From assembly GCA_013297765.1 (NCBI GenBank), contig JAAFID010000006.1:1-47112 (forward strand): 47,112 nucleotides of DNA, written 5' to 3'. Positions 5,500-11,245 of this stretch are shown piece after piece (within the stretch, counting starts at the first letter, position 1; each line of letters starts with the position of its first letter). The stretch is from Cytophagales bacterium. Its GTDB lineage: Bacteria; Bacteroidota; Bacteroidia; Cytophagales; Cytophagaceae. Under the pieces are notes generated by a model. The model worked only from the letters and a program-made list of their open reading frames with translations, had not been told where the DNA came from and did no database searches. A program made the position numbers and the translations under genes.

Positions 5500-5847
5500 A
5501 TGAATACAACTTTAAAAAAAAAGATTTTTAAAATAATTGCCCTGTTGGCAGTTTGTTTTTCATGTCAAAATAACAACGTTCCTGATGGTGTTATTGCCAA
5601 AGATAAAATGACTAAAATATTGATAGAGATCCATAATTTAGAAGCTAAAATAGCTGTACAAAATATGCCTGCTGATTCCTCTAAAATGTATTACTACAAA
5701 CTACAGGGTGAAATATTCAAATCTTACCAAACCGATTCGTCACAGTTTAATAAAAGTTTTAAGTATTATTTGGGTCAAGGAACGGCATTCGACAATATTT
5801 ATGCAGCCGTGGTAGATAGCTTGAGTTTGCAGGAAGCAAAAAAATGA
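5500..5847 (+). CDS. Small DUF4296-like protein
   Basis: Signal/lipoprotein-like N-terminus (VCFSCQNN) followed by 'IAKDKMTKILIEIHNLEAKI', resembling the Bacteroidetes DUF4296 pattern. Confidence 0.6.
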   Translation: MNTTLKKKIFKIIALLAVCFSCQNNNVPDGVIAKDKMTKILIEIHNLEAKIAVQNMPADSSKMYYYKLQGEIFKSYQTDSSQFNKSFKYYLGQGTAFDNIYAAVVDSLSLQEAKK

Positions 5848-5937: not shown

Positions 5938-5968
5938 ATTGCGTATAAACTAATTTACATTAAATTTG
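5938..5968 (+). promoter_or_regulatory. Candidate Bacteroidetes-type promoter (ATTG-N19-TAAATTTG)
   Basis: ATTG at 5938-5941, 19-nt spacer, TAAATTTG at 5961-5968, matching the TTTG-N19-TANNTTTG consensus. Confidence 0.5.
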
Positions 5969-5972
5969 TATC

Positions 5973-6035
5973 ATAGCTGGTTGAAAGATCTTGGAGCATA
6001 TATAGGACGCCCGTCCTTTGCTCCAAGTTTTTTTT
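5973..6035 (+). ncRNA. Candidate short intergenic sRNA of about 60 nt
   Basis: Lies between the candidate promoter (5938-5968) and a terminator hairpin CTTGGAGCA...TGCTCCAAG + T8. No long ORF; flanked by convergent genes. Confidence 0.4.
5990..6035 (+). terminator. Rho-independent terminator
   Basis: CTTGGAGCA (5990-5998) / TGCTCCAAG (6019-6027), inner AGGAC/GTCCT stem, then TTTTTTTT. Confidence 0.85.
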
Positions 6036-6084: not shown

Positions 6085-6846
6085 CTATAAACTTAACTTT
6101 AATCCGTCGTAAGCGATTTTTACATTTTGAGGTAGTTCTGCTTGTACTTGAGTGTGCAAGCCCATGGTATGACTCAGGTGTGTAAGATATGCCATTTCTG
6201 GCTGAATGGTTTCTATAATGTCCAATGCCTCGGCAAGTGTAAAATGCGAGATATGTGGTGTTTTTTGTAGAGCATTTAAAACCAAAATTTTGCTACCTTT
6301 TATTTTCTCTATTTCTATTTCCGAAATACGGTTGGCATCGGTGATGTAGGTAAAATCTTTAAAACGATAGCCAAAAACAGGAAGTAAATGATGATAAACT
6401 TCTATTGGTATTACTTCTACACCTTCTATTTGAAATTTTGTATTTTCTATAATGTTCAAATCAATGAGCGGTACACCTGGGTATTTGATGTCGGCAAAGG
6501 CGTACTCAAATTCTTTTTTTATTTGGTTTAATACATTATTTGTTGCGTAAATAGGAAGATTCTTTTTTTGCAAATAATTAAAACCTCTTACATCGTCTAG
6601 GCCTGCAGTGTGGTCTTTGTGCGCATGGGTGAATAGCAAAGCGTCTAACTGTAGAATATGTTCTCGTAATACTTGCTGTCGAAAATCGGGGCCACAGTCT
6701 ATGATAAAACTTTTTGAATCTATTTCTACATGTATTGAGGCTCGCAGCCTCTTATCTCTAAAATCTAATGATGTGCATACAGCACAACGACAACCTATGA
6801 TAGGAATACCTTGCGAAGTGCCCGTACCTAAAAATGTAATTTTCAA
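6085..6846 (-). CDS. MBL-fold metallohydrolase, PhnP-like
   Basis: LKITFLGTGTSQGIPIIGCRCAVC, THAHKDHTAGLDD. Probable TTG start at 6844-6846; the track ORF extends to 6948 over the upstream gene. Confidence 0.85.
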   Translation of the reverse strand: MKITFLGTGTSQGIPIIGCRCAVCTSLDFRDKRLRASIHVEIDSKSFIIDCGPDFRQQVLREHILQLDALLFTHAHKDHTAGLDDVRGFNYLQKKNLPIYATNNVLNQIKKEFEYAFADIKYPGVPLIDLNIIENTKFQIEGVEVIPIEVYHHLLPVFGYRFKDFTYITDANRISEIEIEKIKGSKILVLNALQKTPHISHFTLAEALDIIETIQPEMAYLTHLSHTMGLHTQVQAELPQNVKIAYDGLKLSL

Positions 6847-7151: not shown

Positions 7152-7529
7152 TTATTTAGCAGTCCATCTTTTTACGCTGTCCACCAACTTGTCAAAATCT
7201 AGTGGTTTGGGAATGTATTCATTAATGCCTACATTTTTAAAATCAATATCGGTATAGTTTTTGGCATTGCCAGTAATTGCTATAATAGGAATTTGAGACT
7301 TGGTGCTATCGCTTAGTGCTCTAATGGCTTTGGCACATTCCATTCCATCCATTTGGGGCATATTGATGTCAAGCAAAATGACATCGAAAGTGGCATTTTC
7401 CAATGCCTTCAACACATCTTTTCCATTTTTTACGGTGCTAATTTCGAAATTTTGAAATTGCAATATTTTTTTTGTAAGATTCTGTATTACAGAACTATCT
7501 TCGGCTATTAATACTTTTTTGGCTGACAT
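7152..7529 (-). CDS. Single-domain response regulator
   Basis: VLIAEDSSVIQ...DVILLDINMPQMDGMECAKAIR...IAITGN...YIPKPLDFDKL. Confidence 0.93.
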   Translation of the reverse strand: MSAKKVLIAEDSSVIQNLTKKILQFQNFEISTVKNGKDVLKALENATFDVILLDINMPQMDGMECAKAIRALSDSTKSQIPIIAITGNAKNYTDIDFKNVGINEYIPKPLDFDKLVDSVKRWTAK

Positions 7530-7549: not shown

Positions 7550-10500
7550 TTACGAATTCAATAAAGTTGGATAATGTTGTTTAAAATAATAAAAAGCTTT
7601 GAAAAGTTCTTCGAAGTCTGCAACTAAATTTTCTTGATTACCTTGTTTCAAATTATTTTCAATGTATTGGGAAAGTCTTTCTAGCTCAATAATACCTAGG
7701 GTTCCAGAGGTACCTTTCAAAGTATGCAAAATACTCAAAAGATTTTTAATATCATTGTTTTGTATGGCTGTTTTACATTCTATAATCTGTTCTTCGGTTT
7801 CTTCTGCAAATTCTAAATAAATAGCTTGCAACATTTCATCATTGGCAAAAGATTTTAGTTTATTTACTACTTGACTATCTAAGCAGGTTATTACATCGGT
7901 ATATTTTTTTTGAACAATTTCATCTGCAATTAAAGACGAGGCCTTGTCGGTCACACTTATTTCTTCAATTTTTAAATTTTGTAACCATTTTTGTACTTTT
8001 CCTATCAATGCTTCAGAGGTGATGGGTTTAGAAATATAATCATCCATACCATTGTTCAAAAACTTTTCTTTATCGTCTTGCATTGAATAAGCAGTCATGG
8101 CAATGATTGGAGGCAAAGTAACAAGATTCAATTTTCTAATTTCAGCAGTAGCTGTAACGCCATCCATTTTGGGCATTTGAATGTCCATAAAAACAATGTT
8201 GTAAAAATTTTCTTTTACTTTGTCTATGGCCTCTATCCCGTTGCTAGCAAGGTGTACTATACAACCTGATTTTTTCAAAATTTCAGATGCCACCAATCTG
8301 TTGATTTGGTTGTCATCTACCAATAAAATTCTAGGAGAATAGCCTACAAATTTTTTAGAGGTTACTGTTTCTTCTTTTGCCGATGCTTTATCGGCTCCAC
8401 GCATGCTTTCTCTAGCTTCAAAGGTAAACCAAAAAGTGCTTCCAATACCTACTTCCGAACTGACACCTACCTGCCCATTCATCATTTTACAAAGTTCTTT
8501 GGATATAGCTAGCCCTAGGCCTGTGCCTGAATACGACTTTGAAGAAGAATTGTCCACTTGACTAAAGGATTCAAAAAGTTTTTTCAAATCATCTGGCGAT
8601 ATTCCAATTCCTGTATCGCTTACCGCTACTTTAATTCGATAAGTATCTTCGTGTTTTTGCTCTAAAAAGACATTGATGGCTACGCCGCCAGTTTCGGTAA
8701 ACTTGATTGCATTTGAAGTAAGGTTGGATATAATTTGTAGTAGCCTTATTTCGTCGGCTAGTATAAACCTAGGCACATCGGCAGCTAGGTGATAGGTAAG
8801 GCTTATATTTTTACCTATTGCTTGCTGATAAAATAGAGCATATAATTTGTCTATTGTTTGTTCAAAATTGATAGATGTCAATTTCAATTGCATCTTGCCA
8901 GCCTCTATTTTCGATAGGTCTAGGATGTCGTTGAGTATGCTGAGCAATGTTTCAGAAGATACTTTGATGGTTTGCACATAACTGCGTTGCTCTATATCCA
9001 GTGGCGTTTCGTTCAGCAAATCTATCATTCCTATGATGCCATTCATGGGCGTGCGTATTTCGTGGCTCATGTTCGCCAAAAAACTTTCTTTTATTTTTAG
9101 CGAGCGTTCGGCAAATTCTTTTGCCTTTAGCGTTTCTTGCTGTGCTTGCTGCAAGTAGGTAATGTCTCTGGCTACACCCTCTACAGCTATTGGTTTTCCT
9201 TCTTTATTTAATATCAACCGAATGTTTGAGATGGTTTGAATAATCTCACCATTTTGCAATTGCAAATTATTTTCAAAATTTCTTACGGAGCCTGTTTTCA
9301 AGAGTTCTCGAATAAGCATGGCTTGTTTTTTTTGATTTACATAAAATTGGGTAATGTGCTTTCCTATAATAGCATCTTCTGAATAGCCGCTCAAAATGCA
9401 GCCAGAAGGGCTAATCATGGTAATTTTTCCAAACACATCAGTACGGTAATAGATGTCTTGAAAAGATTCAAAAATACTTCTGAATTTTTCTTCGCTTTCT
9501 TGCATGGCAAGTTCCGAATTTTTCTTTTCGGTAATGTCGTGCGATATACCCGATACCTCTTCTATTACACCATTGGGCAGAAATATAGGATTGAGGTAGG
9601 TTTCTCTCCATATCCGGTGACCATCTTGATTGATGGTGCTGGTTTCAAAATGTTGTGGCTTGCCTTCAAATGCTGCTTGATAACTTTCATTTACAAAATT
9701 GTGGTACTCTGGGGCAGCCAGCATCATGCTTTCTTGAGTCTCTGCAAGTGGGTCTATTTCGGGTAGTTTGCCAAATTTTCGTAAAATAGCATTGGCATAG
9801 TTTTGATTAAAATTGGTCAATCTTAGTTTTCGATTTACCGACCATATAAGGTGTGAACTGCTTTGAAATATTGATTCTAAGCGTGCTGTTTGTTCTATTA
9901 TTTTTTCTTCATTTCTTTTTCTTTCTATCGCAATGGCGATTTGCCCAGAAATAAAATCTAATAATTCGAGGTGTCTTTTTTTATACTTGTTTCTATCGCT
10001 ATGGCTCTTTACTGCTATTACCCCAATGGTTCTATTCTCTAATCTTAGTGGTACACCCAGCCATATTTTGGGTACTGGTCCTAGCAACTCAAGTGTGTGT
10101 TCATTGGCTAGTTTAATGATGTCTTCTTCGTATAGAAAAGTGGGCTTGTCGTTGAAAAGTGAATATTCAGTAAGCCCCTTCCCTATCTTACGTTTGTTGG
10201 TGGTAATCACATGGGGAATTGTTTCATCGACATAGTAGGGAAAGTCTAGCGAATCGTGTTCTTTGTCGTACAATGCTACGTGAAAGTTATTGACGGCTAT
10301 CATTGATTTTAGCTCTTGGTGAATATTGTGCAAGAGTGTTTCTAAATTGTTGCTATTAATGGTAAGGGTGGCAATTTTGTAATATAAATTTTGTGCTTTT
10401 TCGGCACGAATTCGTTCTGTTGCATTGTGAAAAATGCCTCTGAAGGCCACAGCATTGTTATTTTCGTAGCGAATGTTAATACTGCCAATTAAGTATATAC

Positions 10501-11245
10501 TTTTACCCTGTTTGGTTAGAAATACAGTTTCTATTTTATCATCGTGATTGCCTTGCAAAATTTGTTGCAAAACATCTAAAGTTTCTTCTTTATAATCTGG
10601 GTGCAGTAGGTCTGCTATAGATAGTTTGATGATTTCTTCATCAGCATATCCTAGGGTATTTTTCCAAGCATTATTTACAAAAAGTATTTGACCATCTATA
10701 GTGAAAACCTGTATTAAATCGTTCGCATTTTCAAACAAATCATATAGGTGTTCATTGCTTTCTTTCAGGGCTTTTATCACCCTCTTTTTCTCAGTAATAT
10801 CCTCTCCTACTAGTGTTATTTCATCTACATTATCATCGGCATAATCTGCAATTACATGAAACTTTACGTGCTTTATGGAGCCATCGAGTGTAACAATTTT
10901 TCTTTTAATACGCTTCAACGAATTGTCTTTTGCAAAAATTTGGTGTAGCTCTTCTATTGGCTCTTCAACGTTTTCTTTGGGGAATATTTCACTCCATTTT
11001 TTTCCTATTAAAAAATTTTTTTCCCAACCAGTAAACTGTAGTAGCGCTTCGTTGCAATAGGTAATGATGCCTATTTTATTGATACTAAGGGCTACAAGTC
11101 CCACTTTTTCTAGGGTAAGCCTGTATTTTAGTTCTGATGCACTGACTTCGTGCGGGGATGTTTGTTTTTTGCCAAATGGAAGTAAAGAGGTGAGGTATTT
11201 AATTTCATCTATTAATTCGTGCTTAGTTTTATCAAACAATTCCAT
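7550..11245 (-). CDS. Hybrid sensor histidine kinase (PAS-PAS-GAF-PAS-PAS-HisKA-HATPase-REC-HPt)
   Basis: SHEIRTPMNGIIGMI (HisKA), VSDTGIGISPDDL and GTGLGLAIS (HATPase), RILLVDDNQINR...VFMDIQMPKMDG (REC), LHTLKGTSGTLG (HPt). Confidence 0.95.
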   Translation of the reverse strand: MELFDKTKHELIDEIKYLTSLLPFGKKQTSPHEVSASELKYRLTLEKVGLVALSINKIGIITYCNEALLQFTGWEKNFLIGKKWSEIFPKENVEEPIEELHQIFAKDNSLKRIKRKIVTLDGSIKHVKFHVIADYADDNVDEITLVGEDITEKKRVIKALKESNEHLYDLFENANDLIQVFTIDGQILFVNNAWKNTLGYADEEIIKLSIADLLHPDYKEETLDVLQQILQGNHDDKIETVFLTKQGKSIYLIGSINIRYENNNAVAFRGIFHNATERIRAEKAQNLYYKIATLTINSNNLETLLHNIHQELKSMIAVNNFHVALYDKEHDSLDFPYYVDETIPHVITTNKRKIGKGLTEYSLFNDKPTFLYEEDIIKLANEHTLELLGPVPKIWLGVPLRLENRTIGVIAVKSHSDRNKYKKRHLELLDFISGQIAIAIERKRNEEKIIEQTARLESIFQSSSHLIWSVNRKLRLTNFNQNYANAILRKFGKLPEIDPLAETQESMMLAAPEYHNFVNESYQAAFEGKPQHFETSTINQDGHRIWRETYLNPIFLPNGVIEEVSGISHDITEKKNSELAMQESEEKFRSIFESFQDIYYRTDVFGKITMISPSGCILSGYSEDAIIGKHITQFYVNQKKQAMLIRELLKTGSVRNFENNLQLQNGEIIQTISNIRLILNKEGKPIAVEGVARDITYLQQAQQETLKAKEFAERSLKIKESFLANMSHEIRTPMNGIIGMIDLLNETPLDIEQRSYVQTIKVSSETLLSILNDILDLSKIEAGKMQLKLTSINFEQTIDKLYALFYQQAIGKNISLTYHLAADVPRFILADEIRLLQIISNLTSNAIKFTETGGVAINVFLEQKHEDTYRIKVAVSDTGIGISPDDLKKLFESFSQVDNSSSKSYSGTGLGLAISKELCKMMNGQVGVSSEVGIGSTFWFTFEARESMRGADKASAKEETVTSKKFVGYSPRILLVDDNQINRLVASEILKKSGCIVHLASNGIEAIDKVKENFYNIVFMDIQMPKMDGVTATAEIRKLNLVTLPPIIAMTAYSMQDDKEKFLNNGMDDYISKPITSEALIGKVQKWLQNLKIEEISVTDKASSLIADEIVQKKYTDVITCLDSQVVNKLKSFANDEMLQAIYLEFAEETEEQIIECKTAIQNNDIKNLLSILHTLKGTSGTLGIIELERLSQYIENNLKQGNQENLVADFEELFKAFYYFKQHYPTLLNS

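Follow-up and report, generated by a model that had tools for sequence, protein, structure and literature searches.

A predicted stand-alone sRNA gene between two protein-coding genes

The locus studied here raises the question of whether a short intergenic interval contains an sRNA gene of its own and, if so, how the RNA might act. The interval lies between a DUF4296 lipoprotein-like gene (positions 5500-5847, + strand; PF14129, E = 2e-19) and a convergent metallo-beta-lactamase-fold gene (6085-6846, - strand; PF12706, E = 5e-35), both of which lie outside the predicted sRNA. We analyzed it as part of a 47,112-nucleotide stretch of DNA from a Cytophagales bacterium (referred to as the window), for which an original prediction had proposed that an sRNA of about 60 nt stands alone, with a promoter and a terminator of its own. 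The proposed promoter, ATTG-N19-TAAATTTG, was confirmed to the letter on the + strand: a -33-like element, ATTG, occupies 5938-5941 and is separated by a 19-nt spacer from the -7 element TAAATTTG (5961-5968), which is of the TAnnTTTG type and whose spacing recurs among family loci; read from sequence, the pair corresponds to a Bacteroidota sigma-A type promoter. The predicted sRNA extends from 5972 to 6035 on the same strand, with a transcription start at about 5972-5974 and an end inside the T tract; the evidence is covariance model matches across the order and an identity among paralogues that is confined to this interval. It opens with a single-stranded 5' head, CATAGCTGGTTGAAAGAT (5972-5989), which is near-invariant in alignments and is the proposed seed, its CAU facing the AUG of a target. 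The head is followed by a two-tier terminator hairpin with the loop GCCC (5990-6027), indicated by both folding and covariation, in which an outer stem (CTTGGAGCA at 5990-5998 and TGCTCCAAG at 6019-6027) encloses an inner stem (AGGAC at 6004-6008 and GTCCT at 6013-6017), and by the T8 tract of the intrinsic terminator (6028-6035). The GC-rich double-stem hairpin and T8 had both been described beforehand, as had the distance of 143 nt that separates the start of the stem from the upstream stop codon at 5847. The predicted fold is stable at -22.7 kcal/mol (z -3.8), and 0 of 200 shuffled sequences folded equally well. A simple sigma-70/terminator scan did not flag the 5938-6035 region, which is expected because the promoter is of the Bacteroidota type and the stem is long and bulged. 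Elsewhere in the window, we note an ordinary arrangement, read from translation alone, of a large hybrid sensor kinase that contains PAS-like and receiver segments (7550-11245) beside a stand-alone response regulator (7152-7529).

Members of the family recur across the Cytophagales

A second copy is present in the window's own genome (3.56 Mb in 290 contigs) at C24:37864-37934 on the minus strand, with 96% identity over 71 nt and unrelated flanks. When 59 relatives were searched, this 5' block turned up again and again, and the loci that we read display an almost invariant head, CATAGCTGGTTGAARGA, followed nearly always by a GC-rich hairpin and a T-rich tail. In an exact scan for the head, the named genomes among the matches listed were mostly Cytophagales, including Cytophaga aurantiaca, Rhodocytophaga aerolata, Thermoflexibacter ruber, Raineya, Microscilla, Agaribacillus, and Bernardetiaceae; the listed matches in other phyla mostly had no hairpin, as chance predicts. 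Both searches suggested in the original prediction were run. The covariance model search (model R1) placed the family in 71 of 148 Cytophagales genomes, at 1 to 20 copies each, and across 297 phylum-wide genomes it returned the window's own genome and one weak match only. The Rfam search, by comparison, yielded nothing: at the gathering threshold, Rfam 15 matched nothing anywhere in the window or in 20 relatives, and relaxing the limit to E = 10 brought out nothing of note for the small region. The family, which recurs across the order, was previously unlisted. The literature searched contained no relevant paper on the head motif and none that paired the Cytophagales, which are environmental polymer degraders, with a small regulatory RNA; no regulatory sRNA of the order was described among the papers found. 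Carriage by phages was also considered and is not supported: viral contigs gave eight head matches, of which only one (L172) had a weak hairpin, and none was a clear family member.

We conclude from these sequence comparisons that 5972-6035 is almost certainly a genuine sRNA gene, belonging to a family that is new and order-wide, and that the family is patchy in its distribution and nearly confined to the Cytophagales. A lack of conservation in relatives had been named as the outcome that would speak against a stand-alone sRNA; head and hairpin instead recur throughout the order, well in excess of what chance would give, and everything computed fits the original prediction, which understated what is there.

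An invariant head precedes a covarying terminator

The head has the 17-letter consensus CAUAGCUGGUUGAARGA and is unpaired and near-invariant, whereas the letters of the GC-rich terminator vary between species. We examined the hairpin in an alignment of ninety members, many of which were recruited by the head alone, so that the hairpin is partly independent evidence, even though the model guided the alignment. In the outer helix, 96% of cells are paired, and all eight of the eight pairs have changed on both sides. Paired cells amount to 88%, compared with 58% after shuffling, and the covariation score is 0.62 compared with 0.20, a value reached by 0 of 500 shuffles. When the partner was slid by one column, pairing dropped to ~54% and the score to 0.18-0.19. 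The compensatory changes and the length changes are inconsistent with a conserved reading frame, indicating that the sRNA has no coding potential. With an independent promoter, an intrinsic terminator, and no coding potential, the predicted RNA has the features expected of a trans-acting base-pairing sRNA.

Promoter classes and genomic context

At 20 of 90 loci, CATAG is preceded by the element TAnnTTTG at a distance of 2-8 nt, counted from the G of the element, compared with a mean of 0.63 and a maximum of 4 in shuffled sequences. The window copy is one of these short-leader members, and its transcript is expected to start at or next to CAUAG; at a place similar to that of its -33-like ATTG, other short-leader copies have TTTG-like elements. 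In other members, TAnnTTTG is located ~40-90 nt upstream, the head being preceded by a leader that has its own hairpin; in several of these (L021, L085, L104, L105, and L121) the leader contains a second RGCTGGTTRA motif. The orientation of the upstream gene is mixed, and neighbors differ among copies. At 18 of 94 loci, the gene directly upstream on the same strand encodes a DEAD-box RNA helicase (one representative was assigned by PF00270, E = 8e-49, together with PF00271, and the remaining loci by BLAST). These helicase-linked loci span several families and mostly have the longer leader, and at some of them a convergent M28 peptidase gene comes next; long-leader copies directly 3' of a helicase gene include L006, L007, L009, L024, L029, L054, L059, L064, L111, and L132. 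In a same-genus relative (L003), the copy sits after an NFACT/RqcH-type ribosome quality-control gene.

Hfq was not found over the Pfam cut-off in any of 59 genomes of the order (0/59), and the same search was positive in five control genomes. Dependence on Hfq, which presupposes that the genome encodes it, thus has no footing in these 59 genomes.

Head complements are enriched at start codons in the window's family

The head and UCUUUCAACCAGCU-AUG are exactly complementary; the reverse complement of the head, (A)UCUUUCAACCAGCUAUG, ends in AUG. We counted such sites in 19 genomes from the window's family. The 13-mer TTCAACCAGCTAT, allowing up to one mismatch, had 236 matches, ~30 of which were sRNA genes, compared with 85 for the reversed pattern. 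The 17-mer TTCAACCAGCTATGAAA, which includes ATGAAA, had 99 matches with up to two mismatches (~30 again being sRNA genes), whereas permuted-seed controls that kept the same ATGAAA gave 21 and 13. Most of the non-sRNA sites were fetched and scored for an ATG that begins an ORF 60 aa or more in length, provided that no longer frame covers this ORF. By this measure, the ATG was a plausible gene start at about 24 fetched sites (22 without near-duplicates), compared with 5 and 1 for the permuted seeds. Complementarity to translation initiation regions is thus above chance in these 19 genomes, a result that favors start-codon masking, with two permuted seeds being few controls. The predicted duplexes range from -15 to -29 kcal/mol, several of the mismatches being G-U pairs, and at L198, L205, and L253 they comprise 16-18 contiguous predicted pairs; L253 is ambiguous in that its opposite strand is also a weak covariance model match. 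A separate, unbiased duplex-energy test on 397 start regions of sampled loci was underpowered and gave a slight, suggestive excess, with 16 regions at -12 kcal/mol compared with 7.0 +/- 5.0 and 5 of 60 shuffles as high.

The candidate targets are often secreted or outer-membrane proteins with signal-peptide-like N termini. They include an outer-membrane beta-barrel (L229), a protein with a weak type IX sorting tail that scores below its curated cut-off (L205), and a phosphoribosyltransferase-domain gene whose site is kept in four related genomes (L264-L267). In the window's own genome, a single moderately good start-codon site was found, at the gene of a BNR-repeat protein (L262; -15.7 kcal/mol, two mismatches). 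The excess at start sites is demonstrated for the window's family only. Elsewhere, most exact complements are the sRNA genes themselves, and, judged by position, the order-wide exact complements that end in ATGAA for the most part represent the opposite strand of sRNA genes in which TTCATAG occurs. We also observed the head complement between the stop codon and the intrinsic terminator of unrelated genes (L187, L202, L203, and L204), where it may mark 3' UTR sites or sponges; simple start-codon masking leaves these sites unexplained, and another explanation is needed there.

A start-codon-masking model and its alternatives

We favor, with a probability of about 0.6, the reading that the window locus is a member of an order-wide multicopy family of trans-acting, Hfq-independent sRNAs that mask start codons. 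The sigma-A promoter would yield a transcript of about 63 nt beginning with CAUAG or next to it, with the intrinsic terminator forming its 3' half. The free head, CAUAGCUGGUUGAARGAU, would pair with (A)UCUUUCAACCAGCU-AUG in an mRNA, the AUG being the start codon (we write the target leader as UUUCAACCAGCUAUG, or as UUUCAACCAGCU-AUG). Pairing over the start codon would block ribosome entry and probably expose the mRNA to decay, with no Hfq involved. The DEAD-box helicase encoded beside many longer-leader copies may help to remodel the duplexes. The family, its covariation and promoter spacing, the start-codon complements in the window's family, the helicase linkage, and the absence of Hfq are computed observations; from them we infer transcription of the sRNA, repression of targets, and the helicase role.

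The strongest competitor, though an unlikely one, is that the invariant head binds and titrates an RNA-binding protein or the neighboring DEAD-box helicase, with mRNA pairing being secondary. Conservation of the head goes far beyond that of most seeds, the helicase linkage would suit such a decoy, and the second RGCUGGUURA in the upstream leader of several long-leader members resembles sponge RNAs that repeat a motif. However, most members carry a single copy of the motif, and it is the complement, not the motif itself, that is found at start codons on the mRNA strand.

We consider it improbable that the element is mainly the end of a neighboring mRNA, i.e. a 3' UTR or attenuation element in which a terminator carries a conserved upstream tag, even though 18 loci follow a same-strand helicase gene and the window copy follows the same-strand DUF4296 gene. 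The mixed orientation to the upstream gene, the differing neighbors, and promoter elements at fixed spacing all speak against it. Further, paralogues share only the RNA body and a similarly spaced promoter element in otherwise different surroundings, a pattern that counts against a read-through 3' UTR.

Still less probable is a DNA-level repeat (REP/MITE-like, or a terminator repeat) that has no role as a regulatory RNA: the presence of as many as 20 near-identical copies in a genome, some of them arranged in short tandem arrays, would be in keeping with it, but the T tract is strand-specific, promoter spacing is fixed, paired positions change in a compensatory manner across families, the head is invariant even in single-copy genomes, and its complements lie at start codons.

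The least credible alternative, that AUAGCUGGUU mimics 23S rRNA and lets the RNA engage ribosome-assembly factors, was rejected, as the likeness is to a ten-letter stretch that we take to be universally conserved in 23S rRNA (the stretch for comparison was not found in the window's assembly), whereas the second copies of the motif retain GCUGGUURA without AUA, and conservation runs on into GAARGA, which is presumably absent from that rRNA stretch.

Relation to known sRNAs

In enterobacterial envelope sRNAs with a 5' seed, such as RybB, the conserved extreme 5' end is the seed, the terminator is the 3' half, and the targets are translation initiation regions of outer-membrane protein mRNAs; these sRNAs need Hfq. 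The start-codon-masking model shares with them the 5'-end seed, the 3'-half terminator, and predicted outer-membrane targets, and differs in that Hfq was not found in the 59 Cytophagales genomes.

Within the same phylum, FopS of Bacteroides thetaiotaomicron has 14 paralogues with canonical sigma-A(Bfr) promoters and a seed that binds close to the start codon, repressing the translation of outer-membrane genes, and its structure has been deposited in Rfam (PMC11697453). The family described here resembles FopS in being multicopy, with a single-stranded 5' seed, a terminator, and a sigma-A promoter, and in the predicted target position near the start codon; this is a likeness of architecture only, not of descent. 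It differs from FopS in its range (Cytophagales rather than Bacteroidaceae), in a head that is near-invariant over the order, and in the DEAD-box helicase beside many copies. FopS was not among the Rfam matches up to E = 10 for the window or 20 relatives, assuming that its model was present in the copy searched. The family would work like FopS, and membership in FopS is not supported, in a comparison made by architecture and Rfam models.

A second precedent is Yfr1 of cyanobacteria, an RNA of 54-69 nt that is found lineage-wide, its conservation lying in an ultraconserved single-stranded core and in the terminator stem (PMC2190773). Conservation of a short RNA across a whole lineage, with an unpaired core and a terminator stem, is common to both; Yfr1 differs in its core, ACUCCUCACAC, in an extra 5' stem-loop, and in its phylum. 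For the Cytophagales, the family provides a conserved RNA whose seed is explicit, for which start-codon targets are predicted, and to which an RNA helicase is linked; it bears on how Bacteroidota that are Hfq-free and largely without Shine-Dalgarno pairing may silence genes by covering the start codon.

Copies within a genome are alike over the transcript

Within a genome, copies are often about 90-100% identical over the transcript, whereas the letters of the hairpin vary freely between species. In genomes G150 (12 copies read) and G048 (6) and in the window's own genome, the copies are nearly the same between CATAG and the T tract, hairpin letters included; beyond both transcript ends, identity drops to ~27%, a background level, and the promoter regions are unrelated apart from the element, which most copies keep at the same spacing. 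Several subtypes coexist in G114 (17 read). Because the identical hairpin letters vary between species, purifying selection alone does not easily account for this pattern, and gene conversion over ~60 bp or transcript-sized copying would explain it. We tentatively suggest, while regarding it as doubtful, that the sRNA multiplies or is homogenized as a transcript-sized unit. If so, RNA-templated insertion beside existing promoters, or ~60-bp gene conversion, would spread a start-codon-masking RNA around the genome. These transcript-exact paralogues raise the question of how bacterial sRNA genes multiply. Head-to-tail arrays of the sRNA also occur, with three copies at ~383-nt spacing in L358 (G033:C62:18952-20183) and two at 188-nt spacing in L070.
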